Source: Hyphomicrobiales bacterium (GTDB taxonomy: Bacteria > Pseudomonadota > Alphaproteobacteria > Rhizobiales > Aestuariivirgaceae). Taken from it: a stretch of DNA of 15,342 nucleotides. The translations under genes were made by a program, and so were the position numbers. Under the pieces are notes generated by a model, which was given only the letters and a program-made list of their open reading frames with translations, was not told where the DNA came from and did no database searches. Shown one piece after another: positions 811-15,342 of the stretch. The stretch covers positions 1 to 15,342 of the forward strand of contig JANYGE010000413.1 in assembly GCA_025362535.1 (NCBI GenBank). Reading direction: 5' to 3'. Within the stretch, counting starts at the first letter, position 1. Each line of letters begins with the position of its first letter.

Positions 811-820
811 GAAAATCCAA

Positions 821-1627
821 ATGCCAAAACTTCTGGTCAAACCCAAAAAAGGTGATGGTCGTGTCACCCATATCACGCCGAAATCGGCCAAGTGGAAATA
901 TGTGGGCTTTGATCTTTGGAAAAGCCCTAAAGGCAAAACCGCTAAGGGCGCAGAGGCCAAACGTGAAACCTGTTTGGTATTTGTATCTGGCAAAGGCAAA
1001 GTGACAATTGGCGGCAAAGACTTTGGCGTGATTGGTGATCGCATGTCACCTTTTGAAGGCAAGCCTTGGTCAATCTATGTACCCCCCGGTTTAAAATGGT
1101 CGGTGGCAGCTACAACGGAAATGGTGCTTGCTGTGTGCTCAGCTCCAGCAAAGGGCAAACATGAAGCCCGCATCATACCACCTGATGGGCTCTCTCAAGA
1201 AGTGCGCGGCAAGGGCTCAAACACCCGCCATGTCACCAATATTCTTCCCGAACAAGACCCCTTGGCCGAAAGCCTGTTGGTTGTCGAAGTGATAACCCCC
1301 AATGGCAACACCTCATCCTATCCGCCGCACAAGCACGACAAAGACAATCTGCCGAAAGAATCCTATCTCGAAGAAACCTATTATCACCGCATCAATCCAC
1401 CCCAAGGCTTTGCTTTTCAGCGGGTCTATACTGACAGCCGCAAGCTTGATGAAGCCATGGCCGTTGAAGATGGCGATGTGACACTGGTGCCCAAAGGCTA
1501 TCACCCTTGCGCCACAGTGCATGGCTATGATCTCTATTATCTCAATGTAATGGCAGGCCCCAAGCGCACCTGGAAATTCCACAATGCGCCAGAGCACCAA
1601 TGGCTGTTGGCTAGCCCTACCAAGTAA
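821..1627 (+). CDS. iolB: IolB, 5-deoxy-glucuronate isomerase
   Basis: This cytosolic cupin-fold enzyme isomerises 5-deoxy-D-glucuronate to 2-deoxy-5-keto-D-gluconate, the step after IolD. At 268 residues it has the normal length. The C-terminal cupin carries the family hallmark: YPPHKHD (about 168-173, giving His170 and His172), then SYLEETYYHRINPPQGF (about 181-197, Glu184/185) and VPKGYHPCATVHGYDLYYLNVMAG (from about 223, split here by position: His228, His234). These are the expected metal-site residues. An AGGAAAA Shine-Dalgarno lies about 7 nt before the ATG, and the gap to iolD is 10 bp. The stop codon region overlaps the stop of the convergent HAD gene by 11 bp. No iolE or iolC lies downstream, so this is the distal end of the inositol operon. 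Confidence 0.95.
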   Translation: MPKLLVKPKKGDGRVTHITPKSAKWKYVGFDLWKSPKGKTAKGAEAKRETCLVFVSGKGKVTIGGKDFGVIGDRMSPFEGKPWSIYVPPGLKWSVAATTEMVLAVCSAPAKGKHEARIIPPDGLSQEVRGKGSNTRHVTNILPEQDPLAESLLVVEVITPNGNTSSYPPHKHDKDNLPKESYLEETYYHRINPPQGFAFQRVYTDSRKLDEAMAVEDGDVTLVPKGYHPCATVHGYDLYYLNVMAGPKRTWKFHNAPEHQWLLASPTK

Positions 1628-2381
1628 AATCCTTCATCAGGTAATCTGGCTTCGGCTCAATTTCATCTTCTGCAAGATGAGCCGAAACCCCTTGCTGCAC
1701 CAGCAAGGTATCAAGCCCAACGCCGCGCCCACCTGCCACATCATGCTCAGCACTATCACCAATGCACAGCACGCGTTTGGGGTGGCCCAATAGGTTCAAG
1801 GCATGCAGGTAAATCGATGGGTAGGGTTTGCCTACCCACATCACCTGTCCTCCAAGGCTTTCATAAAGTGCTGCTATTGCCCCCGGAGCGGGTTGCAAGC
1901 CAGAAGGCGTAAGCATCAGTTTATCAGGATTGCAGCACATACATGGCAATTTCACATCGCGCAATATTTCACGGTATTGTTCAAGCGAAGTCTCTGGCGC
2001 ATTGGACCCCAAAATCAACATAACATCTGCCCGGGCAGGATCGCTCACCATCTCCACACCATCAAAGCCATAATCTTCGCCGCTTTTGCCAATCACAAAG
2101 GCCCGCGTGGCTTGCATGGTTTTATAGGCCACCTCACCCGAACTCACAGCGTCGACAAATTGCCCACGCGGCACCCCCATCTTGACAAGACGCGCAACAT
2201 TGGAAGCGGCCCGCTTTCCAGAATTGGTCATCACCACAACCGGAATTTTCAACGCCTGAAGTTTTGCTAGAATTTCAGATGTGCCAGGATAAAGTTTTTG
2301 ACCATCATGGATAACGCCAAACTGATCAATCAACATGGCATCATAATTCTTGGCAATGTCAGAGAGCCCTTTAATCCGCAT
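1617..2381 (-). CDS. HAD superfamily class IIA phosphatase (TIGR01459 type)
   Basis: A predicted cytosolic phosphatase of 254 residues in the NagD-like HAD class IIA, closest in pattern to the family named TIGR01459, whose substrate is unknown. Motif I is LIDQFGVIHDG with Asp19 as nucleophile; the second motif-I acid is Phe21, while Asp26 follows further on. Motif II is MTNSGKR (51-57), motif III the Lys of WVGKPYP (185), and motif IV IGDSAEHDVAGG (Asp209, Asp214). The start at 2381 (MRIKGLSDIA) is chosen because the frame upstream lies inside the kinase gene and encodes a non-homologous-looking 25-residue tail. It overlaps the kinase stop by 11 bp, so translational coupling is likely. It is the last gene of the long operon and overlaps iolB tail to tail. 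It probably removes phosphate from a sugar or polyol phosphate made by the operon's kinases (inference). Confidence 0.85.
   Translation of the reverse strand: MRIKGLSDIAKNYDAMLIDQFGVIHDGQKLYPGTSEILAKLQALKIPVVVMTNSGKRAASNVARLVKMGVPRGQFVDAVSSGEVAYKTMQATRAFVIGKSGEDYGFDGVEMVSDPARADVMLILGSNAPETSLEQYREILRDVKLPCMCCNPDKLMLTPSGLQPAPGAIAALYESLGGQVMWVGKPYPSIYLHALNLLGHPKRVLCIGDSAEHDVAGGRGVGLDTLLVQQGVSAHLAEDEIEPKPDYLMKDFTW
1651..1686. repeat. 9-bp perfect inverted repeat at the convergent gene ends
   Basis: TTCGGCTCA (1651-1659) and TGAGCCGAA (1678-1686) are exact reverse complements, with a smaller TCTT-CTGC-AAGA hairpin nested between them. The repeat lies inside the last part of the HAD coding sequence and 24-59 nt past the iolB stop, where the inositol transcript would end. 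No U-tract follows, so it is not a classic terminator. It may be a 3'-end structure for the iolDB mRNA. Confidence 0.45.
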
Positions 2382-3627
2382 GGCCAAGCCCCCACCATGC
2401 CAAACGCGCAGCCCCCATAGCCGCATGCTCACTCGCTGAAGGCAAAGCCGGCACACCGAGCTTTTTCAAGCGAATAGCTGTCCATTTCTCGTTGCTTGCA
2501 CCACCACCCACAGAGCGAATTGTTTTAAGCGGTGTCGCCCCCAATTCCACCAAGCGCTGATAGCCCAAAGCCTCAATACTGGCGATGCCCTCAAGTACAG
2601 CCTGAAAGTAAGCCCCATCATCAGCTGGGCGCGGAACCATGCGCGGCTGCAAGCTCGGATCATTGATCGGAAACCGCTCACCCGCCGAAGGCAAAGGATA
2701 ATAGTCGAGCCCCGTAAGTTTTGACGGATCAACCAAATCCGTGAGGCGTACCATCTCTTCCTTCTTGAACTCTTGCGCCAATACCCGACCACCTGAATTA
2801 GAGGCCCCACCCGCCAACCAGCGATTGCCAATGCGGTGGCTGTAAATGCCATAGAGCGGCGAAAACACTGGCGTGGCCGATAGCAATTTTAGCGTGAGCG
2901 TGGTGCCGAGTGAGGTAACACCATCACCATCATCTTTGGCACCACTGGCGAGAAACGCGGCACAACCATCCGTCGTCCCCGTCACAATGGCGACATCAAA
3001 TGGCAATCCAAATTGTTGGGCGATCACTTTGCTTATGGTTCCAACCTGAGTTCCAACCGGAACTACAGTTGGAAGTCGCTTTACATCAAAACCCGTATTT
3101 GAAATCCACTGCGGCCATTTGCGTGTGACCGGATCATAGCCGGTCTTCAAGGCATTATTTTCATCGGTTACATCAAAGCGCCCACAAAATTGGCCGAGCA
3201 GCCAATCTGCTTGATGCACAATCTGGCCAGACATAGCCAAGGCCCGTGCCAGAGGTGATGACCCACCAAGGGCCGCAGTCTCCTGTGGGGCCACCGCGAC
3301 CACACGTGCAACATCTTCTGGCTCTGCCAAATCATTATACATCGAAGCAAGATCAACAGGCTTACCCGCAGCATCAATCGGCAAGATTGTTCCTGAGGTT
3401 CCATCAATGGCCAGAGCCACAACATGCAAGCCATCTAACCGCAAACCTGAAAATGCTTTTTCAATACCCTGCCACCACAAAACAGGATCCTGCAAAAGCC
3501 TGATCCCTGATTGAATTGGCAAATTTAATGAAACCTCACTGAGGGCCAACAAGGAACCGTCTATGCCACGCGCCGCAATGCGCACGCCGGATGTGCCGAT
3601 ATCAATACCAAGTGTGACATCAATCAT
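2371..3627 (-). CDS. FGGY kinase, D-ribulokinase type (SePSK/AtXK1-like)
   Basis: An ATP-dependent sugar kinase of 418 residues, shorter than ordinary xylulokinase (about 480-500) and matching the compact cyanobacterial/plant group typified by Synechococcus SePSK and Arabidopsis XK-1, which act as D-ribulose kinases. Visible motifs: GIDIGTSG (7-14), the ATP-phosphate loop; AIDGTSGTILP (73-83); QADWLL (139-144); NALKTGY (158-164); TGTTDGCAAFLASGA (216-230) with Asp220 as the expected catalytic base; GGASNSGG (273-280); TGLDYYPLPSAGERFP (305-320); LGYQRLVELGATPL (354-367); and GGGASNEKW (374-382). I recognise the pattern of this subfamily from memory; no alignment was run. The gene overlaps the SorC stop by 8 bp and the HAD start by 11 bp. 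The likely product is D-ribulose 5-phosphate or a related ketose phosphate; the exact substrate in this operon is an inference. Confidence 0.85.
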   Translation of the reverse strand: MIDVTLGIDIGTSGVRIAARGIDGSLLALSEVSLNLPIQSGIRLLQDPVLWWQGIEKAFSGLRLDGLHVVALAIDGTSGTILPIDAAGKPVDLASMYNDLAEPEDVARVVAVAPQETAALGGSSPLARALAMSGQIVHQADWLLGQFCGRFDVTDENNALKTGYDPVTRKWPQWISNTGFDVKRLPTVVPVGTQVGTISKVIAQQFGLPFDVAIVTGTTDGCAAFLASGAKDDGDGVTSLGTTLTLKLLSATPVFSPLYGIYSHRIGNRWLAGGASNSGGRVLAQEFKKEEMVRLTDLVDPSKLTGLDYYPLPSAGERFPINDPSLQPRMVPRPADDGAYFQAVLEGIASIEALGYQRLVELGATPLKTIRSVGGGASNEKWTAIRLKKLGVPALPSASEHAAMGAARLAWWGLGHAD

Positions 3628-4651
3628 GGTTCCGGGAAGCCTCAGCCAAGACCGCTTTAGCTGTCACCTCATCCGTCACCAAAACATTGGCATAACGCGC
3701 CCGCAGGGCTCCAATAATCGGTAACACTTTATTGCGGCCGCCAGACACCAGCACCACAGATTTTATCTCCTGCAAATATTGCGGAGCCAAAGCCACAGCG
3801 CGATCATTCAGCGGATGAGAAATTATTTTTCCAGTGCGATCAATCCAGTGCGAGCAAATATCGCCAACAGCCCCCATCCGCATCAAGCTTTGCACTTCAG
3901 CCTTATCGATAAGACCCAACATCACCATGGTATTGGCCATGGTCAATTCACCAACCGACAAAAAAGCTAAATCAACTTTACGCCCGCGCTCAAACACATC
4001 ACGCAGCATGGTTTGATTCATCAACACATCACGCATCTCTGCCGTATCGGTAAAGGCTGGTGCGGCAAAATAAAAACATTGCGCCCCGATAATATCGGCA
4101 AGATGCGATGCCGTTTCATGGCTGTTGACGGCTGAAGATTTTGTTAGCCCTCCGATGAGGGCAACCACTGATAGATTTTTGAACCTCTTGCGCGGCACCG
4201 AGCGCAATGACAACCGCAAAGTGCGCCCCCAGCCCATGCCAACCGACATGCCATCTTTAAGGCGTGAACCTAAATATTGACCAGCGGCAGTAGCGATAAC
4301 CAAGCGGAGTTGATTGCTATCAGGTGGTGTGGGCACCACAACAACATCTTGTAAGGCGAAGACCGATTTGAGCTTATCTTCCAAGGCCACACACTCAGCC
4401 AAACGCCCTGTGACCGAAATTTGCACAAGGCCCTGCTCGCGCGCATCAGATAAAAGCCGGTTCACGCGCCCGCGTGTGACACCCAATTCTTTTCCAATTT
4501 GGGCTTGCGTATGCCCCGCCACAAAATAAAGCCATGCCGCGCGCGTGGCCAATTGTTCTTCAGCGTCGACAAAAATAGATGGAATGAGCGCATCGTCCAA
4601 AGCTTCAGCCAATCCACTCGGAACCACCAATACATCGCGCTCTGGCATCAT
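3620..4651 (-). CDS. SorC-family sugar-responsive transcriptional regulator
   Basis: A DNA-binding regulator of 343 residues with the SorC/DeoR-like layout. A roughly 30-residue N-terminal extension precedes a helix-turn-helix (about 46-76; GHTQAQIGKELGVTRGRVNR), which is followed by a large C-terminal sugar-phosphate-binding domain of the NagB/RpiA fold. That domain contains GMGWGRTL, VALIGGL and LVSGGRNK, typical of SorC effector domains. The ATG at 4651 is preferred to the in-frame TTG three bases earlier: it forms a TGATG stop-start overlap with the GpsA-type gene and has GGAG 6 nt upstream. A second ATG follows immediately. Family effectors are usually phosphorylated intermediates, and EryD of the Brucella/Rhizobium erythritol operons belongs to the same family. 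Sitting inside the operon, it probably regulates itself (inference). Its operator may lie in 13932-14020. Confidence 0.9.
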   Translation of the reverse strand: MMPERDVLVVPSGLAEALDDALIPSIFVDAEEQLATRAAWLYFVAGHTQAQIGKELGVTRGRVNRLLSDAREQGLVQISVTGRLAECVALEDKLKSVFALQDVVVVPTPPDSNQLRLVIATAAGQYLGSRLKDGMSVGMGWGRTLRLSLRSVPRKRFKNLSVVALIGGLTKSSAVNSHETASHLADIIGAQCFYFAAPAFTDTAEMRDVLMNQTMLRDVFERGRKVDLAFLSVGELTMANTMVMLGLIDKAEVQSLMRMGAVGDICSHWIDRTGKIISHPLNDRAVALAPQYLQEIKSVVLVSGGRNKVLPIIGALRARYANVLVTDEVTAKAVLAEASRNHD

Positions 4652-5709
4652 CAAGAACTCCGGTGAAAATCACCCCAAGGTGGATTAAAGCTTGTGTTAT
4701 GTTGTAAGGCATTAAGCAAGGCCAGTGTAAGTGGTAAATTTTCGCCACGAAGCCTTCCACTGCGGATCATCGCGTGAAGGGCCGAAGCAACGGATAGCCC
4801 CAACTCAGCGCCCTCAACAGTATCATCCTTCATCGGGCCCTGTTTAACTTCAGAATAGGTGAGCCCGCGTCCTAAATGTTGACCAAGCCTTGAATTGCGT
4901 CCGGCTTGGCAGGTTACATAAAGGTCTCCTGCTCCCGGCATGCCCCACACGCTTTCGGCTGAACCACCAAGACTTTGAGCCAACACCATCATTTCCCGAA
5001 TGGCTTGATCAAACAAAATTGCTGCCGCATTATTATTCAATGCTTTGTTTTCGACACTGGGCAACTTATCCAAAGCACCGTGAGCCCAGCCCACCGAAAT
5101 GGCAAAAAAATTCTTGAAGGCCGCACAGGTTTCAACGCCGATCACATCAATTGAGGGCCGTGGTTGATAATAATGGGTTTGAAGATTTTCACAAAGTTGC
5201 ATCGCAAGCGCCAGATCATGCGCTACAATCACCGTGCCCGTTGTGCGGCGCACCGCCAATTCGCCTGCAATACAAGGGCCACCGATAGCCGCCGCAGGGA
5301 CTTTAAATCCAAGGGCTTTTTCGAGGGCCTGAGCAACCTTATCAACAAAACTTGAGAGGCTATTTTCCTCCGGCACCATGCCTTTGGTCACCATTAAAAC
5401 CGGTACAGGTTTTTTCAGAACCGAGACCAGTTGCTCAATGGCCCAGTTCACCCCTGCCGATGCAACACCCAGAACAATCAACTCCACACTATCATCCACC
5501 GCTTCCGCCAATTGCGTGTGCTGAAACCCCACAACGGATGCAGGCAGAGTGACATTGAGCCTGGGATGAAACTGTTTGGTTTTCACATTTTCAATAATTG
5601 CGACGTCAAGAAAAGTGCCAACCAAACGCACCGCATAGCCCCGGTCTGAGAGGGGCAGACACATGGCTGTTCCCATGACGCCTGCTCCCAAGATGGCAAC
5701 AGATCTCAT
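4651..5709 (-). CDS. NAD(P)-dependent glycerol-3-phosphate dehydrogenase family (GpsA-type)
   Basis: A cytosolic dehydrogenase of 352 residues. The N-terminal Rossmann fold starts with ILGAGVMGTA (GxGxxG at 8-13) and has the TKG lysine at 108-110. The all-alpha C-terminal domain has the catalytic AAFKN (Lys199-Asn200), MPGAGDLYVTC (257-267) and the RN pair at 271-272. All main GpsA landmarks are present. One differs: the GPSFAKE-type segment reads GGPCIAGE (143-150), with Gly where Lys is usual. The family interconverts sn-glycerol 3-phosphate and dihydroxyacetone phosphate. Its placement inside a catabolic operon, not beside housekeeping lipid genes, suggests either DHAP handling or oxidation of another polyol phosphate (inference). 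The start overlaps the ATPase stop as ATGA and its stop overlaps the SorC start, so coupling is likely. Confidence 0.85.
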   Translation of the reverse strand: MRSVAILGAGVMGTAMCLPLSDRGYAVRLVGTFLDVAIIENVKTKQFHPRLNVTLPASVVGFQHTQLAEAVDDSVELIVLGVASAGVNWAIEQLVSVLKKPVPVLMVTKGMVPEENSLSSFVDKVAQALEKALGFKVPAAAIGGPCIAGELAVRRTTGTVIVAHDLALAMQLCENLQTHYYQPRPSIDVIGVETCAAFKNFFAISVGWAHGALDKLPSVENKALNNNAAAILFDQAIREMMVLAQSLGGSAESVWGMPGAGDLYVTCQAGRNSRLGQHLGRGLTYSEVKQGPMKDDTVEGAELGLSVASALHAMIRSGRLRGENLPLTLALLNALQHNTSFNPPWGDFHRSS

Positions 5710-6758
5710 GCAATCACCTTGCCGGTTGCCTCATCGAAAAGATGGACCTTGCTGAGATCAGGCGCGAGCTCAACTGTGCTTCCACGTTTTAACACGAGAC
5801 GATCTCTGATAATCGCACAGACTTCCTGTGGGCCAACATCGGCATAAACGTGAATTTCCGGGCCTGTTGGTTCTGTCACGGAAATGGTTGCAGGAATGCC
5901 TTTCCCCAAGCTCATGTGTTCTGGCCTGATACCATAAACCACTTTTTGTCCAATTTTGCCACCATGGGTTTTCGGTAAAGGCAGCTTCACACCGCCTTCG
6001 GTTAAAACATGGTCCTTAGCCACAACACCCTTGATCAAGTTCATCGAAGGTGAACCAATGAAAGACGCAACAAATAAATTGACCGGATGATCATAAACAT
6101 CAAGTGGAGTTCCCACTTGCTCAATAATGCCATCACGCAAAATCACGATTTTATCGGCCATGGTCATGGCTTCGATTTGATCGTGGGTCACATAGACTGT
6201 TGTGGTCTTCAGCCGCTCATGCAGATCTTTAATTTCAGTGCGCATCTGAACACGGAGTTTTGCATCAAGATTTGACAGCGGTTCATCAAACAAAAACACC
6301 GCAGGATCACGCACAATAGCCCGGCCCATAGCCACGCGTTGGCGTTGCCCACCTGAAAGCTCACGCGGATATCTGGCGAGATAGGGTTCAAGATTGAGAA
6401 TCTTGGCAGCCCAGCCCACTTTCTCTTCGATCTCGGCTTTGGGCCGCTTGGCCAAATGGAGCGAGAAGCTCATATTATCCTTCACCGTCATATGCGCATA
6501 GAGCGCATAGTTTTGAAACACCATGGCAATATTTCGATCTTTCGGATGCACGTTATTCACGCGCTTTCCGGCAATTTCAACATCGCCCGCGGTGACCGAT
6601 TCAAGACCCGCAATCATGCGCAGCAAGGTCGACTTTCCACAGCCTGATGGGCCCAGAAATACAACAAACGAACCATCATCAATGGTCAGATTGATGCCGT
6701 GCACGACTTCAACATCGCCATACTTTTTGAAAATGTTTTTAATATTTACCGATGCCAT
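5706..6758 (-). CDS. ABC importer ATPase, MalK/UgpC type
   Basis: The nucleotide-binding subunit of a CUT1-type carbohydrate importer, 350 residues, on the cytoplasmic face. Walker A is GPSGCGKST (36-44), the Q-loop is Gln82, the signature is LSGGQRQR (134-141), Walker B is VFLFDE (154-159), the D-loop is SNLD (162-165) and the switch His is His192. The C-terminal third (about 235-350) is the TOBE/OB regulatory region with YGIRPEHMSL, as in MalK and UgpC. It serves the two permeases at 11259-13096 and the binding protein at 9669-11198, although it lies two genes downstream of them. A GAGGTAGG Shine-Dalgarno lies just before the ATG and overlaps the upstream stop; the gap to the G1PDH-type gene is only 12 bp. 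Confidence 0.95.
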   Translation of the reverse strand: MASVNIKNIFKKYGDVEVVHGINLTIDDGSFVVFLGPSGCGKSTLLRMIAGLESVTAGDVEIAGKRVNNVHPKDRNIAMVFQNYALYAHMTVKDNMSFSLHLAKRPKAEIEEKVGWAAKILNLEPYLARYPRELSGGQRQRVAMGRAIVRDPAVFLFDEPLSNLDAKLRVQMRTEIKDLHERLKTTTVYVTHDQIEAMTMADKIVILRDGIIEQVGTPLDVYDHPVNLFVASFIGSPSMNLIKGVVAKDHVLTEGGVKLPLPKTHGGKIGQKVVYGIRPEHMSLGKGIPATISVTEPTGPEIHVYADVGPQEVCAIIRDRLVLKRGSTVELAPDLSKVHLFDEATGKVIA

Positions 6759-6770
6759 ATTTTACCTACC

Positions 6771-8090
6771 TCACTGCGCGTCTTGCGCCAAAAATTCATC
6801 AAGCAAACCACAATCATCTGCCAAATCGAGAAATGACCAACGGTTGCGGATGTCGCGTCCATATTTCATCGCATCACGCCAAACTGAAATTGAAAGTCCA
6901 AGCTCACTTGCCGTTGTCGGGCCACCAGCTGACGCAATAATTTTTTGCATCTCGGTAGGATCAATCATGAAAGCCGCCAGTTCTTCGCGAAGCTCTGGCC
7001 ATAGCCGTTCAATTTTCGCATTGAAGGCCGCCGCACCCCTGGCATCGAAAGCTTTTTTCTGGGCCTCAGCAAAACACAATGGCCCAAGATGCCTGCCATA
7101 GCGTGTGATGAACTCATCTTCCACAAGATGTGTGGGTTTAATTTTCGGCGCACGCGCCATATTCAGCATTTCTTTTTGCAAGCGCGCAATCGCCAAGGTG
7201 GCAACACCCACTTGCTGGCCGTGGATAGAACCGGGATGCTGCTTACCCGCAAACATATCAATCCAATGTGAAACCTGATGCTCGCCCATCGAACCCGCAT
7301 GAGAACTGCCGGTAAAGCAATTGCCAAAACCAGAGAGAATCATCACCCGGTGCAGATGGCCTTGCGCCGCAATATCATGCTTGGCCAAGCCAGCCGCACT
7401 GGCGATCATGCGCGGTTCATCTTCAGCCACAAGAGTGTAAGGTGTTTTCGAATAGAAACTATCAAACAAGCGATGCGCCGCCCACCAATCCACTTGGGCG
7501 GTTGGCCGACACAGGCTATCAGCCAGACCTGCCGCCGGAAGCCAAGCGGGTGCCGCTGCATTCACTTTCAAATCAATAAATATGCCGCGTGGGGCATGGG
7601 CTGGCAGCGAAGTTTTATAACCACTATCGAGGGTAACTGAAGCCGTGCCCGCCGCATAACCATTCATCGAGGCTGCGGTGGGAAAGCTCACATATTTGCG
7701 GCCATCTTTGAATGTTGCGTATTTCACCACATCCGAAAGCGATCCGGAACCAACAACGATCAAGCCATCGGCATGGCGCGACTTGTCTTGCATCAAGGCA
7801 ATGGTTGGCTCATCGCAATGGGTATCACTCGGCATGATAATTTCATCAACGGTGCCGAGCGCTTTAAGCTCCTTGGCAATGCGTTTGCCCATGGCTTCAT
7901 GCGTGTTGTGATCGGAGATAACAGCCAAGCGTTTGCCGAGCTTGAGAGGTCCAACCATATCGGCCCCGCCACCCTCTAAATCCTCTTCAAGTCTGATCGT
8001 CTCGAACGGCATCTCTGCTGCCTTGCCGGTTTCCGGATCACGCCATTCACCTGCGATCACTTCGCGGATCAAACTGTTCCAATCAGCCAT
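6771..8090 (-). CDS. sn-glycerol-1-phosphate dehydrogenase family (AraM/EgsA type)
   Basis: A metal- and NAD(P)-dependent dehydrogenase of 439 residues in the iron-alcohol-dehydrogenase superfamily, on the glycerol-1-phosphate dehydrogenase branch (Fe-ADH_2), which includes archaeal EgsA and Bacillus AraM. The dinucleotide-binding segment is VVGSGSLSDVVKYA (112-125), followed by SFPTAASMNGYAAGTAS (135-151). Expected metal ligands are Asp191 in AGLADSL, His270 in SMGEHQVSH and His290 in SIHGQQVG. Several AraM proteins act on glycerol 1-phosphate, but related operon-borne enzymes may use other polyol phosphates. The ATG at 8090 is chosen over an in-frame TTG at 8105; it overlaps the kinase stop by 8 bp, as other junctions here do. 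It is a strong candidate for the polyol-phosphate oxidation step of this pathway. The family call is firm; the substrate is open. Confidence 0.85.
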   Translation of the reverse strand: MADWNSLIREVIAGEWRDPETGKAAEMPFETIRLEEDLEGGGADMVGPLKLGKRLAVISDHNTHEAMGKRIAKELKALGTVDEIIMPSDTHCDEPTIALMQDKSRHADGLIVVGSGSLSDVVKYATFKDGRKYVSFPTAASMNGYAAGTASVTLDSGYKTSLPAHAPRGIFIDLKVNAAAPAWLPAAGLADSLCRPTAQVDWWAAHRLFDSFYSKTPYTLVAEDEPRMIASAAGLAKHDIAAQGHLHRVMILSGFGNCFTGSSHAGSMGEHQVSHWIDMFAGKQHPGSIHGQQVGVATLAIARLQKEMLNMARAPKIKPTHLVEDEFITRYGRHLGPLCFAEAQKKAFDARGAAAFNAKIERLWPELREELAAFMIDPTEMQKIIASAGGPTTASELGLSISVWRDAMKYGRDIRNRWSFLDLADDCGLLDEFLAQDAQ

Positions 8091-9609
8091 GGTGACGACC
8101 TGCAAAATCTTGCAATTTTGTATTCCAGCTTGAAACTTGCGGCCAAAGCTCGCGGTAAATTGTCAACAATTCAACATATGCCTTATTTTGTTTTGTCCGT
8201 GGACGAAATGTTTTAGACGGTTTTCCCGACATGATCGCAGCAGCCTCGGGAATTGATTTAAACCAATTTGCAGCTTTCGCTGCAGCCATTGCGGCCCCCT
8301 GTGAAGAGGCTTCAACAGTTTCCAATCGCTTTACATCGCGCCCTGAAGCATCCGCCACAATTTGACACCAGAAATCAGAACGCGCGCCACCACCCATGAT
8401 TACATAATGATCAATGGCAGTTGTCGAGGCTTCTACTCCATTGGTCATCATCACTTGTTCAAGCACAATCCCTTCGAGCATGGCGCGGTAAACATCACCG
8501 CGTGAATGATTGCCCGAAAACCCGGCAATCAGACCTCGCGCACTGGTGTCCCAATAGGGTGTCATGCATCCCGACCAATAGGGAATAATGGCAATGCCAC
8601 GGCTTCCAACGGGAGAAAGCATGGCTTCGCTTTCCAGTGTTTTAAAAATCCCAGGATTTTTGAGTGGATCAACATTGAACAGGCGCTCTACCATCCAGTT
8701 CAGCAAAAATGTTCCGGTGCGAATGCAAGTCTCGTAAATATAGCCCTCTTCGGCAACCGCCGACATGGTGCGAAACACTGGATTATGGGCATAGGCCTTG
8801 CCAAAATTGCCCGATACGGCGGCGGTGCCGAGATTGAGATAGGCGCGGCCTTTTACAAAAACATTAGCGCCAGTACCTGCGCATTGGCCATCTCCACCAC
8901 CAGCAACAACCGGAGTTCCAGTCTTGAGGCCCGTGATCTTGGCAGCACCGACTGAAACCTCCCCCATCACTTCACCCGGACGATAAAGTTTGGGCAACTG
9001 ACTCAGATTAAGACCAACATGCGCGATCAATTCTTCCGACCACTTAAAGCTGCGCATATCAATGAGGCCCATCGGATCGGCCGATGCCGAAGAAGTGTGC
9101 CATTCACCGGTTAGAAATTGCGTAAGCACACCATGAACCTCGGCGGTCTTTGCAGTTTTGCCCCAAAGCTTTGGCATATTTTTAGAAAGCCACAGGCAGC
9201 GCGTAATGCAAGGTGTAACATCGGAAGGCTTGCCTGAAATATCATGCAAATGCGCCGCACCTAAAGCGCGCGCGATTTCTTTTGTTTCAACATGGGCGCG
9301 CTCATCCAGCCACAACGTGCCGGGGCGCAGCGGTTTATTCTTGGCATCAAACTGAGCAAAAGATTCGCGCTGGTTCGAAATGGAAAGTGCAGCTACCCTG
9401 CCCATGTCGATTTTTTTAGAAAGCTGCTTCAGCGCTTTGCTGGCAGCACCTGTCCAATCACCAACCTCTTGTTCAAACCAACCTGGCTTTGGATTGCTTA
9501 AGGCCACAGAAGCTCTCGCTTCAGCAACCGGATGGCCGCGCCTGTCCCAAGCAATAGCCTTGGTTGCAGTCGTTGAGGCATCAAGCCCTATGACGAGATC
9601 TTGTTTCAT
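8083..9609 (-). CDS. FGGY carbohydrate kinase (xylulokinase-like, 508 aa)
   Basis: An ATP-dependent sugar or polyol kinase with the full two-domain FGGY length of 508 residues. Visible motifs: IGLDASTTATKAIAWD (7-22), the ATP-phosphate loop; SNQRESF (78-84) and LWLDERA (99-105), substrate-side signatures shared with glycerol kinase and xylulokinase; GGGDGQCAGTGA (237-248) with Asp240 as catalytic base; NLGTAAVSG (259-267); MGGGARSDFW (405-414), the adenine site; and EASSQGAAMAAA (433-444). The exact subfamily (xylulose, glycerol, erythritol or another polyol) is not recognisable. Directly next to the binding-protein gene and overlapping the G1PDH-type gene, it is the best candidate for the first phosphorylation of the imported compound. 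No good Shine-Dalgarno precedes its ATG; a strong stem-loop lies 19 nt upstream. Confidence 0.88.
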   Translation of the reverse strand: MKQDLVIGLDASTTATKAIAWDRRGHPVAEARASVALSNPKPGWFEQEVGDWTGAASKALKQLSKKIDMGRVAALSISNQRESFAQFDAKNKPLRPGTLWLDERAHVETKEIARALGAAHLHDISGKPSDVTPCITRCLWLSKNMPKLWGKTAKTAEVHGVLTQFLTGEWHTSSASADPMGLIDMRSFKWSEELIAHVGLNLSQLPKLYRPGEVMGEVSVGAAKITGLKTGTPVVAGGGDGQCAGTGANVFVKGRAYLNLGTAAVSGNFGKAYAHNPVFRTMSAVAEEGYIYETCIRTGTFLLNWMVERLFNVDPLKNPGIFKTLESEAMLSPVGSRGIAIIPYWSGCMTPYWDTSARGLIAGFSGNHSRGDVYRAMLEGIVLEQVMMTNGVEASTTAIDHYVIMGGGARSDFWCQIVADASGRDVKRLETVEASSQGAAMAAAKAANWFKSIPEAAAIMSGKPSKTFRPRTKQNKAYVELLTIYRELWPQVSSWNTKLQDFAGRHHG

Positions 9610-9668: not shown

Positions 9669-11198
9669 TTATAAGCCTGCGTCAGCCACGGCCTTGTTAA
9701 TTTGACCCGCAATGTCATCCATGCACTTCTTGGCATCACCACCATAATCTTGGCCAGTGAGCAGTTTGCCGAGATTGACAGGGATTTCATTGTTCGAGAA
9801 GCCAGCCCACAATGGCATATCGGGCTCGGAAGCCATGTCATTGTCGATGATTTCTTTAACAATTGGCAAGTGGCGTGTGGTGCCCGGGCCTACAACTTCC
9901 TTGGCTTTCACGCGAGGATCAGCGAAGGACGACAAGCGCATGGGAGCAAAACCACCGCCCAATGTGCAACGTGTCATGATGTCCTTCGAGCAAGCCCATT
10001 GCATGAATATCCAAGCTGCATCGAGGTTCTTCGAATATTTGGAGAGACCCAAAATCGAACCCCCTTGATGGCCAGCATTTGGAATTTCACCAAAGCCAGC
10101 ATCAGCAACGGAACGGTAAGCAGCACCGCGCACAGGACGCTTAGCCATCCACAGACCCTTGACCTTCGAGTCAGCAGCATCCCAACCCGGGAAGAACTCA
10201 TCCCAAGAGTTGACAAGTGCAATCTGGCCTGAAGCACCCATCTGCCATTGACCATCCCACGTTGAGTTGGTCGATTCTGGTGGAGAAATCTTGAGCAGCT
10301 CCTGATAATATTGCAGACCTTTGATACCCGCTTCATCATTGCCAGAGAACTTCTTGTGCTTGGTGAATATCGAGCCACCGGAGTTCCACACAACCTGGGT
10401 CCAATCGCATTCCAGCGAGTAGTGACCAGACTTGGCTTGAAGGCCTGTGCCAAACATGCCGTTGCCTTTTTCGGCCTCATAAATCGCCTTGGCACAAGTC
10501 ATAAACTCTTCTGGCGTATTGGGCGGAGTCAACTTGAGCTTGTCAAAGATGTCCTGACGCCACATCGTTGTCATGATTGGAATGTCGAATGGAATACCGG
10601 CCCAATGGCCATCATACATGGCAAGGCCTTCAACCAAGGGCTTGGAGAAGTCTTCCCAATCCATGCCAGGCATAGCGAGATCTGGCTTGTCCTTATAATT
10701 GGCAATTGGATCAACCGTGTCTTGAGCAAAGGTGGCAACCCACGACTGATCAAGATAATAGAGGTCATAGGAACCAAGTTGGCCTTGTACGTCTTGCGTG
10801 GCCTTGGCGAGAACTTGTTCCAAAGGAACAATTTCGATTTCCACTTCAATGCCTGTGAGGGCTGTAAATTCACCCTTCAGCTTATCCAACACCACGGTTG
10901 GTGGGGTTGCTTCTGAGGTATAACGAATCTTGGTGCCCTTGAATTTGGAACCAACATCCTTCAGCCACTTGTTCACTTCTGGATCGCCAGTTTCCTCAGC
11001 CCATGCAGGCGTTCCGATCAGGTTGTAGCTGTCGCGGTAACGGCGTGTGTTGCCGAGAAGTCCAAGATTGAAGGCCGAGAAGCCCACACCAGCTAGAGCC
11101 GATTTCTTTAGAAACGAGCGCTTGGAAATGCGCCGTGCCGTGAAGTCATTGGCCGCGTCAACTAGAAACGTCTTTTTATCATATTCTCTGAAACTCAT
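9669..11198 (-). CDS. ABC importer substrate-binding protein (CUT1 sugar/polyol type)
   Basis: A periplasmic extracellular solute-binding protein of 509 residues, longer than MalE or UgpB (about 400-440). The N-terminus is unusual: about 24 charged residues precede SKRSFLKKSALAGVGF (25-40), which resembles a Tat signal with Lys-Arg in place of the twin Arg, and a possible cleavage site AWA-EE lies at 65-69. The mature part has the two-lobe binding-protein pattern: YDLYYLDQSWVATFA, a hinge-like AGIPFDIPIMTTMWRQDIF and a C-terminal ALVNSWDEFFPGW. It is rich in Trp and Tyr, as expected for carbohydrate binding. A strong Shine-Dalgarno (GGGAGGAAA) lies 5 nt before the ATG. The gene follows the two permeases by 60 bp. 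The ligand cannot be read from sequence; given the enzymes around it, a polyol or ketose is likely. Confidence 0.9.
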   Translation of the reverse strand: MSFREYDKKTFLVDAANDFTARRISKRSFLKKSALAGVGFSAFNLGLLGNTRRYRDSYNLIGTPAWAEETGDPEVNKWLKDVGSKFKGTKIRYTSEATPPTVVLDKLKGEFTALTGIEVEIEIVPLEQVLAKATQDVQGQLGSYDLYYLDQSWVATFAQDTVDPIANYKDKPDLAMPGMDWEDFSKPLVEGLAMYDGHWAGIPFDIPIMTTMWRQDIFDKLKLTPPNTPEEFMTCAKAIYEAEKGNGMFGTGLQAKSGHYSLECDWTQVVWNSGGSIFTKHKKFSGNDEAGIKGLQYYQELLKISPPESTNSTWDGQWQMGASGQIALVNSWDEFFPGWDAADSKVKGLWMAKRPVRGAAYRSVADAGFGEIPNAGHQGGSILGLSKYSKNLDAAWIFMQWACSKDIMTRCTLGGGFAPMRLSSFADPRVKAKEVVGPGTTRHLPIVKEIIDNDMASEPDMPLWAGFSNNEIPVNLGKLLTGQDYGGDAKKCMDDIAGQINKAVADAGL

Positions 11199-11258: not shown

Positions 11259-12167
11259 TCACTCCTTTAATGAGCCGAGCGTTAGCCCGCGGACCAGATG
11301 GCGTTGTACCAGCAAGATAAAAATGAATCCGGGGATCACGGCTGCTGTGCCCAGCGCAGTGATAAAGCCCCATTCATTGCCAGTGGAAGTTACAAAGGTT
11401 TGGATTTTGACCGGCACCGTTCGAATGTCGGTGGTGAGAAACAGGGACAGCAAGAATTCTGTCCAAGAAAACACAAAACAAAGCACGGCCGCAGCGGCGA
11501 TACCCCCGCGCACCATGGGGAGCACAATTTTCGAGAAGGATTGAAAGCGCGTGGCCCCATCAATCATCGCTGCTTCATCAACGTCTTTTGGAACATCATC
11601 GAAGAAGGATTTGAGCAGCAACACGGCAATAGGCAAATTCATTAGCGAATAAATCAGCATCAGGCTGAGCCAGCCCAAGTAATAATTGTCGGTATCGCGC
11701 AGTCCAGCCAGTTTAAACGTGATTACGAGTGGGAAAATGATCGCAATGGGCGGCATAAAGCGCTGCCCCAGCACCCAGTTCAGAAAAGCATCACGGCCAC
11801 GAAATTGCATGCGTGACAAGGCATAAGCCGCAAGAATAGCCACAAGCATTGTGATGGTTGTGGCCCCGATTGAAACCACAATTGAATCCAACATCGATGA
11901 GCGCGAATCGTAAGCTTCGGTTCCAGCAACCCCCATGCCCAAACCCTCATCAATAGCAAGCTGCGAACGCGAACGGCCCAACAAAGTCACGGCGTAATTT
12001 ATCAGTGTCGGCGTGAAGTCAAACCAAACAACCTTGTCTTTGTCAAAAATCGCTGAAATCGGCTTAAGCGATGTGAGCGCCCACCAAAACATCGGAAACA
12101 TGAATAGGCTGGTCACAAAGACGGCAAATGAATCGCGTACAAACTGCCATGGCTTTGACAATTCCAT
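11259..12167 (-). CDS. ABC importer permease, MalG type
   Basis: An inner-membrane permease subunit of a CUT1 importer, 302 residues with about six membrane segments. The first covers about 11-31 (FAVFVTSLFMFPMFWWAL) and is followed by a long periplasmic stretch containing SQLAIDEGLGMGVAGTEAYD before the second. The coupling (EAA) loop is DEAAMIDGATRFQSFSKIVLP, starting at residue 197, where the MalK-type ATPase docks. The C-terminus RHLVRGLTLGSLKE is typical of MalG-like proteins. Its ATG overlaps the TGA of the MalF-type gene by one base (TGATG), so the pair is translated together. Confidence 0.93.
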   Translation of the reverse strand: MELSKPWQFVRDSFAVFVTSLFMFPMFWWALTSLKPISAIFDKDKVVWFDFTPTLINYAVTLLGRSRSQLAIDEGLGMGVAGTEAYDSRSSMLDSIVVSIGATTITMLVAILAAYALSRMQFRGRDAFLNWVLGQRFMPPIAIIFPLVITFKLAGLRDTDNYYLGWLSLMLIYSLMNLPIAVLLLKSFFDDVPKDVDEAAMIDGATRFQSFSKIVLPMVRGGIAAAAVLCFVFSWTEFLLSLFLTTDIRTVPVKIQTFVTSTGNEWGFITALGTAAVIPGFIFILLVQRHLVRGLTLGSLKE

Positions 12168-13096
12168 CAGAGCTTCACCTTAAAGATACGCATGAAAACT
12201 GTTGAGGTGACGATCACCAAAAATAACGTGAGCAATGCCACAGTTGACGCCAAGGGAAAATCAGCATTGCCAAAATAAATGCGGCCAGCATAGCTCGTCA
12301 AGGTTTCGGTGGCCGTGCCTGGCCCTGAATCCGTCATCACCTTAATGTAGTCAAAGGCGCGTAACAGATCGACACCACGGATTAATACGGCAATCGCGAT
12401 CACCTTCGACATCATCGGCAAGGTGAGTTTGAAAAACGCTTGTACAGGTGTTGCACCATCAATTGCTGCAGCTTCAAACGGCTCCTTAGGTAAGGACCGT
12501 AACCCTGCCAACATGATCAACACCATAAAGGGAGTCCATTGCCAGATTTCGGCAAGCAACACGCCTGCCATAGCCGTAGAGTAATTACCCAGTATCGTAT
12601 AGCCAGGTGGCAGGAGCCCAAGAGCCATAAGGCCTTTTGCAATCACACCAAACGAGCCGTTCAGCATCAGCAAAAACATCATGGCTGTAACGGCGGGCGG
12701 AATAACCAGAGGCAAAGTCATCATGGCGCGCATCACGCCATAGCCTTTACGATCTGAATCGAGCAGCAAGGCAATCAACATGCCCAATACCAATTGAAAC
12801 ACAATGGCAATGCCCGTGTACATGAGCGTATGCAGCAGAGCATCCCACATGCGGGGTTCGTGAAAAATTTTGATCCAATTATAGGCAGGATCAAACACCT
12901 CACGCCGGGTCGCTGCATTCTTGCGATGCAAGGATGACCATATGGCAGCAATAAGGGGATACATGCCAAACACCACCATCAATGCGCTGGCTGGCAATAA
13001 CCATGGAAGCGGATGCTCTGACGACAAGATGCGGCGCCACCAAATAGGTTGATGCATATCGTCATTTGCGATTGCGAGCGTCACTGTTTTTCCCAT
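12167..13096 (-). CDS. ABC importer permease, MalF type
   Basis: An inner-membrane permease subunit, 309 residues, partner of the MalG-type protein. After a cytoplasmic N-terminus of about 30 residues, the first membrane segment is LPWLLPASALMVVFGMYPLI, and six in total are apparent. The EAA loop EAAAIDGATPVQAFFKLTLP lies at about 208-227. The late FDYIKVMTDSGPGTATETL motif is characteristic of MalF/UgpA-like permeases. The Shine-Dalgarno before the ATG at 13096 is weak (AAAAG); an internal Met14 has no better site, so the longer form is kept. A candidate promoter lies 35-64 bp upstream, so the transporter may be transcribed separately from the aldolase. Confidence 0.93.
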   Translation of the reverse strand: MGKTVTLAIANDDMHQPIWWRRILSSEHPLPWLLPASALMVVFGMYPLIAAIWSSLHRKNAATRREVFDPAYNWIKIFHEPRMWDALLHTLMYTGIAIVFQLVLGMLIALLLDSDRKGYGVMRAMMTLPLVIPPAVTAMMFLLMLNGSFGVIAKGLMALGLLPPGYTILGNYSTAMAGVLLAEIWQWTPFMVLIMLAGLRSLPKEPFEAAAIDGATPVQAFFKLTLPMMSKVIAIAVLIRGVDLLRAFDYIKVMTDSGPGTATETLTSYAGRIYFGNADFPLASTVALLTLFLVIVTSTVFMRIFKVKL

Positions 13097-13196: not shown

Positions 13197-13931
13197 TTAT
13201 TTCGATTTTGATTTTTTCGACGTTACATCGCGGCGCACCGGAGCAAACACCGCATGAGCTGAAACATCCTCAGCTTTCAACGCATCGGGCTGGCGTCCAT
13301 AAGTCTTAAAGCGCTTCAAAACACTCACCATTTTTGCATCGGGCAAGATCACGGGCTTGCCCGCAACACAGGCGGCCCAATATTGGTGACACGTAGCTTC
13401 AATCTCTCCCGCCAACCACAAAGCCTTATCCAGATTGTTCGAAAAAACAATTTGCCCATGATTAGCAAGCAAGCAAGCCGTCCGGTCTTTCATGGCTTCC
13501 AGCATCGTGTCTGAAAGTTCTTGTGTGCCAAATTCAGCATAATCTGAAACCCGCAAACTCGAACCTCCGGTAACACCGATCATATAGTGAAAGGCCGGAA
13601 CATCCTTGCGTAAACATGCAAGCGCAGTCGCGTAAGTTGAATGAACATGCACGATGGCGCCCGCTTCGGGTCGCGCTTTGTAAATATCCATATGCATGCG
13701 CCATTCCGTTGAGGGCAAATAATCACCCTCATAACCACCATCCAAATCCATCGACACAATATGATGCGGTTTCATTTTTTTATATGGAACACCTGATGCC
13801 GTAATCAGAAAACCTTCCGGCACCCGAACACTTACATTGCCAGACGTGCCTTGATTGATGCCGTCTTCATTCATCGCCAAACAAATTTCGATCACCTGTT
13901 TGCGCAATTGTAAATGTTTCAACTTTGTCAT
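13197..13931 (-). CDS. Class II aldolase/adducin family (L-fuculose-1-phosphate aldolase-like)
   Basis: A zinc-dependent cytosolic aldolase or epimerase-fold protein of 244 residues. The expected active-site residues sit almost exactly as in E. coli FucA, shifted by three: Glu76 in STEWRMH, His95 and His97 in VHVHSTY, and His158 in LANHGQI. The phosphate-binding segments QGTSGNVS (27-34) and TASGVPY (44-50) are also present. FucA-like enzymes split a ketose 1-phosphate into DHAP and an aldehyde; relatives are RhaD, the AraD epimerase, and others acting on tetrulose phosphates. The C-terminus is extended and ends in a Lys/Ser-rich tail (RRDVTSKKSKSK). AGGAA lies about 6 nt before the ATG. It is divergent from the third kinase and is the first gene of the - strand series. 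Its reaction would deliver DHAP, which the GpsA- and AraM-type enzymes classically use. Confidence 0.88.
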   Translation of the reverse strand: MTKLKHLQLRKQVIEICLAMNEDGINQGTSGNVSVRVPEGFLITASGVPYKKMKPHHIVSMDLDGGYEGDYLPSTEWRMHMDIYKARPEAGAIVHVHSTYATALACLRKDVPAFHYMIGVTGGSSLRVSDYAEFGTQELSDTMLEAMKDRTACLLANHGQIVFSNNLDKALWLAGEIEATCHQYWAACVAGKPVILPDAKMVSVLKRFKTYGRQPDALKAEDVSAHAVFAPVRRDVTSKKSKSK

Positions 13932-14020: not shown

Positions 14021-15342
14021 ATGAAAAAAGAAAACAAAAAACTACGTGGTATCGTCGTTGTCGATGTGGGTTACACCAACACCAAGGCGATATTGTTTTC
14101 GCCAGATTTAAAGATCCTAGGTGAGCGCAAGATAGCCAGTGCACATCTTGCGGGTGCACATTATAAAGTTATCGATGCTGAACCTGTGTTTGCTTTCTTG
14201 CAAAAGGCTCTCTCTGAGTTGGATTCCATATTGCCAGTGGATTGCATTGTGCCTGCAGCGCATGGAGCCTGCATTGTGAGTTTGAATGAAGATGGGTCTT
14301 TGGCTTTCCCCGTTATGGATTATGCCTCTGAGCCACCTGAGCCCATTATTGCGGCCTATAAAAAAATCGAACCCCCATTTTCTGAAGTTTACTGCACCTT
14401 ATTGCCAATGGCATTAACCCATGCCGTGCAACTTTTTTGGCAACAGAGTTTAGATCCTGAAAAATTTAAAACTGTCAAAACCATTTTGCCTTGGATTCAA
14501 TATATTGCTTTTCGCCTGTCAGGCGTAGCCGCAACCGAAATCTCATCAATGGCGTGCCAATCCCAATTGCTCAATGTGAACAGTGCAGTGCCTTCCAGTT
14601 TGGCCATCACACAAGGCTGGGGCAAATCCTATGCGCTGCGCCGTAAAGCTTGGGATCGCTTGGGCCCATTGCGCAGCGAATATAGAGGCCAAAAATTTGC
14701 AGGGCGTGGCGAAGTTCTAGCTGGTGTGCATGATTCAAATGCCAATTACTTGCGCTATCTCGCAGGTGGTCTCGCTGATTTTACCCTTCTCTCCACTGGC
14801 ACCTGGGTGATCAGTTTTAACAGTGCTGCCGATATTGCCAAACTTGATCACACCAAAGACACCAACACCAATACCGATGTGCTCGGTCATGCTGTGGCCT
14901 GCAGCCGATTTTTTGGTGGCAAGGAATTGGAAATTCTGTCGGATGGCGCTCCTGCAGAATTGGCTGATTTGGTACTGGTGCAAAAACTGGTGAGTGCCCG
15001 AACCATGGCCCTGCCGAGCTTCACAGATTCGGGTGGGCCATTGCCGGGCACCGGCAATAAAGGCCGCATCATTGGTCCTGCGCCAGTAACTCCAGCTGAA
15101 CGCGCCAGCCTTGCAGCGCTCTATTGTGCGTTCATGGTTTCAGCCCAACTGGATGCTGTCTCATCGCGCAACCAGATCATTGTTGATGGTCCATTTTCCA
15201 AGCACAGCGTATTTTTGTCTCTGCTTGCTCAATTGCGTGGCGATCAAAAAATCTATGCGTCAGATTTACGTGATGGCACAGCAGCGGGTGCAGCATGTTT
15301 GGCTTTAATGCAAGATGCGAAGCTGCCTAAAATTGAAATCTC
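14021..15342 (+). CDS. Third FGGY-family carbohydrate kinase (3' end outside window)
   Basis: An open frame runs from ATG 14021 to the window end (440 codons, no stop), so the 3' end is missing but most of the protein is present. An in-frame TGA at 14006-14008 leaves 14021 as the first possible start; its Shine-Dalgarno is poor. Motifs: VVDVGYTNTKAILF (13-26), an FGGY phosphate loop with Tyr where Thr/Ser is common; GVHDSNANYLRYL (235-247) with Asp238 as likely catalytic base; LLSTGTWVISF (256-266), as in rhamnulokinase and fuculokinase relatives; IVDGPFSKH (387-395) at the adenine-site position where GGGxxN is usual; and DGTAAGAACLA (418-428). It resembles the NaCK-like/rhamnulokinase-like branch, whose substrate is uncertain. 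It is divergent from a FucA-like aldolase, which fits phosphorylation of a deoxy-sugar ketose or a tetrulose. Confidence 0.82.
   Translation, partial: MKKENKKLRGIVVVDVGYTNTKAILFSPDLKILGERKIASAHLAGAHYKVIDAEPVFAFLQKALSELDSILPVDCIVPAAHGACIVSLNEDGSLAFPVMDYASEPPEPIIAAYKKIEPPFSEVYCTLLPMALTHAVQLFWQQSLDPEKFKTVKTILPWIQYIAFRLSGVAATEISSMACQSQLLNVNSAVPSSLAITQGWGKSYALRRKAWDRLGPLRSEYRGQKFAGRGEVLAGVHDSNANYLRYLAGGLADFTLLSTGTWVISFNSAADIAKLDHTKDTNTNTDVLGHAVACSRFFGGKELEILSDGAPAELADLVLVQKLVSARTMALPSFTDSGGPLPGTGNKGRIIGPAPVTPAERASLAALYCAFMVSAQLDAVSSRNQIIVDGPFSKHSVFLSLLAQLRGDQKIYASDLRDGTAAGAACLALMQDAKLPKIEI

Follow-up and report, generated by a model that had tools for sequence, protein, structure and literature searches.

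The window analysed here is the whole 15,342-base contig JANYGE010000413.1 of a Hyphomicrobiales bacterium (assembly GCA_025362535.1, a 2.8 Mb draft genome that is 92.8% complete, here called G000; other genomes and loci are given G and L numbers in the same way). On its minus strand lies an operon in which an AraM/EgsA-family dehydrogenase and a GpsA-family dehydrogenase, members of the families of sn-glycerol 1-phosphate (G1P) and sn-glycerol 3-phosphate (G3P) dehydrogenases respectively, are encoded together with an importer of the ATP-binding cassette (ABC) type and with FGGY carbohydrate kinases. The membership of both genes in these families and their location in one operon were confirmed, and the pairing is more general than this operon, as it recurs in related bacteria. 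The interpretation favoured here, with a probability of about 0.5, is that of a polyol catabolic operon whose two dehydrogenases would work in parallel on polyol phosphates, an activity predicted from sequence comparisons.

Both dehydrogenase genes are intact and, as had been stated in the preliminary description of this DNA, only the importer ATPase lies between them; the families and coordinates given there for both genes stand on the open reading frames (ORFs), the Pfam and NCBIfam matches and the nearest solved structures. In order of transcription, the minus strand carries the genes of a FucA-like aldolase, permease 1, permease 2, a solute-binding protein, FGGY kinase 1, the AraM-type dehydrogenase, the importer ATPase, the GpsA-type dehydrogenase, a SorC/DeoR-type regulator, FGGY kinase 2 and a HAD-IIA protein (Table 1). 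From kinase 1 through the HAD gene, adjacent genes either share 4-17 bases or are separated by 12 nt, an arrangement as in a single transcript. Considering mechanically assigned starts, the AraM-type gene overlaps kinase 1 by 8 nt and is separated from the ATPase by 12 nt, and the GpsA-type gene overlaps both the ATPase and the regulator ORF by 4 nt.

The AraM-type protein matches Pfam Fe-ADH_2 at 109 bits, above the cut-off of 28, and its best NCBIfam model is NF002022, 'glycerol-1-phosphate dehydrogenase', at 150 bits, which fails a cut-off of 413 that may not be one bacterial AraM reaches. Its nearest solved structure by sequence is the G1P dehydrogenase 9h4x (111 bits). In an alignment of 86 proteins, of which 83 are the window protein, those of the 80 loci described below and two more distant copies, the metal positions D191, H271 and H290, aligned with 9h4x and 4rgq, are invariant in all 83. 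The GpsA-type protein, for its part, matches NAD_Gly3P_dh_N at 63 bits and NAD_Gly3P_dh_C at 85 bits (cut-offs 23 and 25), reaches 155 bits on the best NCBIfam GpsA model, under the cut-off of 257, and has the G3P dehydrogenase 1txg as its nearest solved structure by sequence (151 bits).

The recurrence of the pair was examined in 397 genomes drawn evenly from the order, with the GpsA type called at E <= 1e-35 and the AraM type at E <= 1e-60; the top 4 or 5 first-look candidates per genome were scored, and absences are thereby not absolute. The GpsA type was found in 17 genomes, the AraM type in 25 and both in 14, against 1.07 expected (Fisher p 1.3e-16). Once 13 listed genomes of the own genus were removed, the GpsA type was present in 9, the AraM type in 19 and both in 8 of 384 (p 6e-11); as the genomes are related, these p-values are indicative only. 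The possibility, left open in the preliminary description, that the pair would not be met elsewhere is set aside by these counts together with the operon layouts described below. In all 14 genomes except G609 the two genes share a contig, within about 1.3 kb in 12 cases and within 9.5 kb in G585. The GpsA type without the AraM type was seen in G005, G021 and G292, and the AraM type without the GpsA type in 11 genomes. Within the own genus (25 genomes including G000), a close AraM is present in 15 and an operon-type GpsA in every one of these; GpsA stands without a close AraM in four (G003, G005, G021 and G006, the last being 89% complete in 820 contigs), and six have neither.

Among 385 genomes of the class, the GpsA type was found in 8, the AraM type in 17 and both in 3 (G000, G945 and G658). 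Five of these eight GpsA-type matches may be the ordinary GpsA of small genomes: outside the order, G710, G720, G823, G909 and G983 (1.2-1.8 Mb) each have one first-look GpsA candidate, at 31-35% identity. The GpsA type is hard to separate from ordinary GpsA outside the order. As a separate observation, the G720 candidate adjoins respiratory-chain genes, the ORFs being read by eye.

Operon layouts were compared in the best 80 loci of 294 confirmed relatives in the named collection, which were divided into class A (L048-L081, 34 loci) and class B (L082-L127, 46 loci), the latter from Rhizobium, Sinorhizobium, Agrobacterium, Mesorhizobium, Bradyrhizobium and other genera. Genes were counted by bit-score thresholds (GpsA 100, GlpD 150, aldolases 100-200, kinase 150, binding protein 200), GlpD and class II aldolase only within the stretches fetched. 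A relative of kinase 1 is present in 77 of the 80 loci. Class A follows the order permease-permease-binding protein-FGGY1-AraM-ATPase-GpsA-regulator, and GpsA is found in 33 of 33 assessable loci (32 of 34 by threshold; L071, where GpsA is cut by the contig end, was added, and L066, a 3.4 kb contig, was set aside). In class B, FGGY1 and a regulator mostly diverge from AraM, which is followed by a HAD-IIB gene, often GlpD, the permeases, the binding protein, a short-chain dehydrogenase/reductase (SDR) and the ATPase, and then often by a RhaD-type aldolase/dehydrogenase and GpsA; in seven loci (L084, L087, L100, L110, L113, L114 and L117) the importer is on the divergent side. The Rhizobium leguminosarum WSM1689 record carries the full set under automatic names.

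GpsA was counted in 20 of 45 class B loci, partly from 20 loci picked by coordinates and with L109 left out of the genome-wide search, and GlpD in 19 of 46. Both genes are present in 15 loci, GpsA only in 5, GlpD only in 4 and neither in 22, a binding protein being found in 19 of these 22. The idea that GpsA and GlpD substitute for each other in class B was dropped, as a cut at about 21 kb had hidden GpsA beyond the edge and 15 loci hold both. In addition, L108 carries GlpD fragments at about 12256-12490, and the GpsA of L112, one of the 20 in class B, is in two pieces at about 17200-18829; gene loss from these operons appears to be under way in some Rhizobium strains.

Each of the two enzymes also occurs alone. 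G003 and G021 keep the importer, kinase, GpsA and regulator without a close AraM, and their operon is flanked by a mannitol-dehydrogenase-family protein and zinc dehydrogenases (by scan in G003, by eye in G021); in G005, whose contig stops inside the operon, GpsA is present with no AraM match. As the ORFs called for G003 and G021 include spurious antisense ones, gene order was taken there only from ORFs matching a protein of the window. In the 1.4 Mb genome G658 the genes fall into two blocks. AraM is grouped with FGGY1, the importer, an SDR and a RhaD-type aldolase, and the GpsA type (31%) with FGGY2, a HAD-IIA relative and a second SDR. G585 has two RhaD-type aldolases, next to AraM and to GpsA respectively. 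If the two enzymes served one conversion, each would be useless alone, yet both occur singly, which argues for two parallel entries. The preliminary description had offered two roles for the pair. The oxidation of two different polyol phosphates made by the kinases would fit better and is favoured over an obligatory swap of glycerol-phosphate enantiomers; conversion of one enantiomer into the other through dihydroxyacetone phosphate (DHAP) appears disfavoured rather than excluded, since a housekeeping GpsA might supply the missing step for the 22 class B AraM loci that show neither GpsA nor GlpD. In G658, an ORF that by eye resembles canonical GpsA (L163, 2690-3646) is the direct neighbour of the RhaD-like aldolase in the AraM block.

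In the proposed route, the importer would take up acyclic polyols and the FGGY kinases would phosphorylate a terminal carbon of the polyol, after which both dehydrogenases would act in parallel, each oxidising the secondary alcohol adjoining the phosphate. The AraM type would take the sn-glycerol 1-phosphate configuration and the GpsA type the sn-glycerol 3-phosphate configuration. Either way the product would be a 1-phospho-2-ketose (for glycerol, DHAP), a compound open to cleavage by a class II aldolase into DHAP and a short aldehyde. The substrates, the stereochemical complementarity of these two enzymes and the aldolase step are what we infer here. By textbook stereochemistry, ribitol 1-phosphate through the GpsA type and D-arabitol 1-phosphate through the AraM type would both yield D-ribulose 1-phosphate, a substrate of FucA-type aldolases, and such a product would suit an aldolase of this type; in the version with a RhaD-type aldolase, L-arabitol and xylitol phosphates would, by the same derivation, yield L-xylulose 1-phosphate. 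A bolder and more doubtful form of this proposal is that the pair acts as a gate blind to handedness, at which C2-epimeric polyol pairs (ribitol/D-arabitol or, with RhaD, L-arabitol/xylitol) might converge on a single ketose 1-phosphate and a single aldolase. If so, two families known as markers of the divide between archaeal and bacterial lipids would have been recruited jointly for catabolism.

The neighbouring genes give some indication of the substrates. The FucA-like aldolase aligns at 209 bits to the L-fuculose-1-phosphate aldolase 1fua, retains its metal-site Glu and His positions, which we take to be the catalytic Glu and the metal-site His, and fails the NCBIfam cut-offs for fucA (223 against 400 bits) and for a subfamily model (237 against 264 bits). 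Kinase 1 scores 282 bits on XylB compared with 173 bits on glycerol kinase models. The solute-binding protein probably serves polyols: its nearest solved relative, as for the Sinorhizobium meliloti copy, is 5iai, a structure that contains ribitol according to the part of its report available (PMC8468352). As this match is distant, the ribitol link is a hint only.

A further indication comes from position 143 of the AraM-type protein. Asn is found there in all 83 AraM-type proteins of the alignment, as against Asp at the equivalent position in the G1P dehydrogenases of known structure 9h4x, 3ce9 and 4rgq, a residue reportedly linked to substrate binding in the Aeropyrum enzyme. With Asn instead of Asp in this clade, G1P itself may not be the substrate of the AraM-type enzyme. 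The three remaining rows of the alignment, set apart beforehand, have Asp (two) or Gly (one, resembling dehydroquinate synthase by eye). Of 13 further PF13685 proteins of the phylum, L150 and L152 share the Asn, and the other 11, namely L151, L153 and nine proteins that we label glycerol-dehydrogenase-type, have Asp. A second AraM type, 39-40% identical, was also seen in L042 (8375-18631) and L043 (1015-5169), near a FucA-like aldolase, an FGGY kinase and a protein of 224-246 aa, which in L042 had no match in NCBIfam (E up to 1e-20) or Pfam (E up to 1e-5).

Several observations weigh against a polyol-phosphate operon of this kind. L151, which is 45% identical and has similar neighbours, carries Asp and is an exception to the Asn signature; Asn143 is thereby weakened as a clean definer of the operon clade and becomes a clade mark with one exception. 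Not every locus has a class II aldolase gene within the stretch fetched (16 of the 34 in class A and 29 of the 46 in class B do), and an aldolase step encoded nearby is thus no general feature. Four GlpD proteins of class B operons score 745-776 bits, within the range of the other GlpD-type copies of class B genomes (17 at 717-794 and one at 523); these scores being ordinary, G3P may be a real intermediate in class B. Finally, in G909 (1.3 Mb; L165, 8690-17245) a GpsA-type gene of 32-35% identity has a two-ATPase importer and an FGGY kinase as its neighbours, which keeps ordinary G3P oxidation possible for GpsA. This gene may encode a catabolic G3P dehydrogenase, the locus resembling what we take to be the make-up of rhizobial glycerol operons.

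The last two observations, together with the family names of both enzymes, favour glycerol-phosphate scavenging or enantiomer conversion, whereby AraM would oxidise G1P to DHAP, GpsA would handle G3P and the operon would use glycerol or both enantiomers. A glycerol kinase is, on the other hand, expected to make one enantiomer only, and the preference of kinase 1 for XylB, the ribitol in the nearest solved binding protein, the Asn in the AraM clade and the occurrence of each enzyme without the other all count against this explanation, which is considered unlikely.

Another possibility is that the AraM-type enzyme is a glycolaldehyde/lactaldehyde reductase acting after the aldolase, with the GpsA type alone oxidising polyol phosphate. 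As far as the available part of the source goes, VNG_6270G, a haloarchaeal protein with a G1P dehydrogenase annotation, serves as the glycolaldehyde reductase of a pathway with a ribulose-1-phosphate aldolase and has no notable G1P/DHAP activity (PMC9700705), and the family name consequently does not fix the reaction. This non-carboxylating pentose bisphosphate pathway resembles the present system in its ribulose-1-phosphate aldolase and its protein annotated as G1P dehydrogenase, and the window likewise contains a FucA-like aldolase; it differs in that the protein reduces glycolaldehyde, and a GpsA partner and a polyol importer are not described in that part of the source (PMC9700705). The AraM-type protein itself reaches only 27 bits on the NCBIfam haloarchaeal reductase model (cut-off 550) compared with its score on the G1P dehydrogenase model. 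It also keeps an RxR motif near the C-terminus and an S-x-x-EH motif, which are common to 9h4x and 4rgq and absent from all nine glycerol-dehydrogenase-type proteins. Moreover, 35 of the 80 AraM loci are without a class II aldolase in the stretch fetched. An aldehyde reductase role therefore has, in our estimation, a small chance of being correct.

The two dehydrogenases could also act in series as a C2 epimerase system, one turning a polyol phosphate into the ketose phosphate by oxidation and its partner reducing this ketose phosphate again, in the opposite configuration. The shared operon would agree with this, as would the stereochemistry of the families, G1P and G3P dehydrogenases being unrelated and reducing DHAP with opposite stereochemistry in the available part of the account (PMC4244643). 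The presence of GpsA without AraM and of AraM without GpsA beside related importers, and the separate kinase modules of G658, make serial epimerisation improbable and speak for the parallel oxidation proposed above.

The relation of the operon GpsA to the housekeeping enzyme was established from alignments and a tree. K109, K199, D262, R271 and N272, which we take to be catalytic and phosphate-site residues, are invariant in 50 of 50 operon GpsA and 11 of 11 housekeeping copies. Position 296 is Asp or Glu in all 50 operon proteins and Gly (8), Glu (2) or Pro (1) in the 11 housekeeping ones, and position 264 is Tyr or His in the former and Leu or Val in all of the latter. The tree separates the two groups by a branch of 1.42 with support 1.0. 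In the own genome the operon gene is the sole PF07479 match, and a canonical GpsA was not found in this draft, probably as a result of assembly incompleteness. PF07479 is matched in all 41 genomes examined (the own and 40 relatives). A canonical-type copy, at 116-186 bits, is present in 39 of them and missing only from G000 and G006, both drafts. Operon-type GpsA scores 63-89 bits, and 17 of the 19 genus genomes that have it also have the canonical type. By residues, tree and scores, the operon GpsA is a paralogue distinct from the housekeeping GpsA. The notion that it is the housekeeping lipid-precursor enzyme lying in the operon by accident, an outcome the preliminary description had allowed for and to which its status as sole match of its assembly lends itself, is largely refuted by the incomplete state of that assembly (92.8%), the canonical copies of the relatives and the tree split, and is highly improbable.

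With regard to known systems, the AraM-type protein shares with Bacillus subtilis AraM and archaeal EgsA, as judged on the solved G1P dehydrogenases, the family, the metal Asp/His/His and both the RxR and S-x-x-EH motifs, and departs from them in its 150 bits against the cut-off of 413, in Asn143 and in its operon context of FGGY kinases and a sugar-type importer. The GpsA-type protein shares with canonical GpsA, the NAD(P)-dependent G3P dehydrogenase, the domains and the active-site Lys, Asp, Arg and Asn positions, whose roles are assumed, and departs from it in the tree split and at positions 296 and 264. The rhizobial ery loci were compared through the literature and GlpD scores only. Six GlpD relatives taken as EryB-like, EryB being presumably a relative of GlpD, score 252-279 bits against 745-776 for the GlpD of class B operons. 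In the part of the report available, these loci for erythritol, adonitol and L-arabitol have an ABC polyol importer and an FGGY kinase also taking adonitol and L-arabitol, as in the operon described here, and neither an AraM-type nor a GpsA-type enzyme is named there (PMC3599248).

AtlD and AtlF of Bacillus methanolicus, which we assume to belong to another enzyme family, offer a different comparison. They are likewise two polyol-phosphate dehydrogenases for one polyol and differ, according to the available part of the study, in uptake by a phosphotransferase system, in pentulose 5-phosphate products and in flux through one route only (PMC7511216). No description of an AraM-GpsA pair in polyol catabolism was found in the open-access literature among the matches listed, subscription papers lying mostly outside; the earlier remark that no well-described polyol pathway uses this pair holds within that range. 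The operon represents a conserved and apparently uncharacterised variant of rhizobial-type polyol operons. Several automatic annotations in Rhizobium and Sinorhizobium records name these genes as G1P and G3P dehydrogenases. If the enzymes are polyol-phosphate dehydrogenases, these names mislead, including where G1P dehydrogenase genes are used as marks of archaeal-type lipids, and a recurrent polyol route of soil and plant-associated bacteria could then be tested directly.

Table 1. Features of the 15,342-base window, with the matches on which their names are based.
Feature	Coordinates	Strand	Basis and remarks
iolD end and iolB	25-1627	+	named by eye from ORFs; other side of operon
HAD-IIA phosphatase-like protein	1617..2387	-	TIGR01459, 187 bits, cut-off 104
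FGGY carbohydrate kinase 2, 418 aa	2371..3627	-	FGGY_N 48 bits, FGGY_C 45 bits; XylB 108 bits
SorC/DeoR-type regulator, sugar-binding domain	3620..4654	-	Sugar-bind 210 bits; DeoR and LsrR models under cut-offs
GpsA-family dehydrogenase, 352 aa	4651..5709	-	NAD_Gly3P_dh_N and NAD_Gly3P_dh_C
ABC importer ATPase, UgpC-type	5706..6758	-	NF008653 500 bits, cut-off 432
AraM/EgsA-family dehydrogenase (G1P-dehydrogenase family), 439 aa	6771..8090	-	Pfam Fe-ADH_2
FGGY carbohydrate kinase 1, xylulokinase-like	8083..9609	-	FGGY_N and FGGY_C; XylB 282 bits, under cut-off 380
Solute-binding protein, probably polyol	9669..11198	-	SBP_bac_8; nearest solved chain 5iai, 108 bits
ABC importer permease 2	11259..12167	-	BPD_transp_1
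ABC importer permease 1	12167..13096	-	BPD_transp_1; best NCBIfam UgpA 114 bits, under cut-off 335
Class II aldolase, FucA-like (L-fuculose/D-ribulose-1-phosphate aldolase type)	13197..13931	-	Pfam Aldolase_II 184 bits
FGGY kinase 3	14021..15342	+	FGGY_C_2 164 bits; diverges from aldolase, open at contig end

The HAD-IIA start at 2387 was chosen, the mechanical ORF beginning at 2456. The FucA-like aldolase sits 100 nt upstream of permease 1, and its partner may be the divergent FGGY kinase 3, the two forming possibly a separate ketose kinase-aldolase module; in class A, each of the 11 loci seen to have this aldolase has the divergent FGGY_C_2 kinase as well. From the adjoining iolD end and iolB, a link of the operon to inositol metabolism is possible. 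Relatives of iolB are present in 14 of the 34 class A loci. Lastly, the binding protein of the window shares 92% identity with its counterparts in G003 and G021 (L044, L046), compared with only 59-68% for kinase 1, GpsA and the regulator, and judged from these unequal identities the transporter and enzyme genes are a patchwork.

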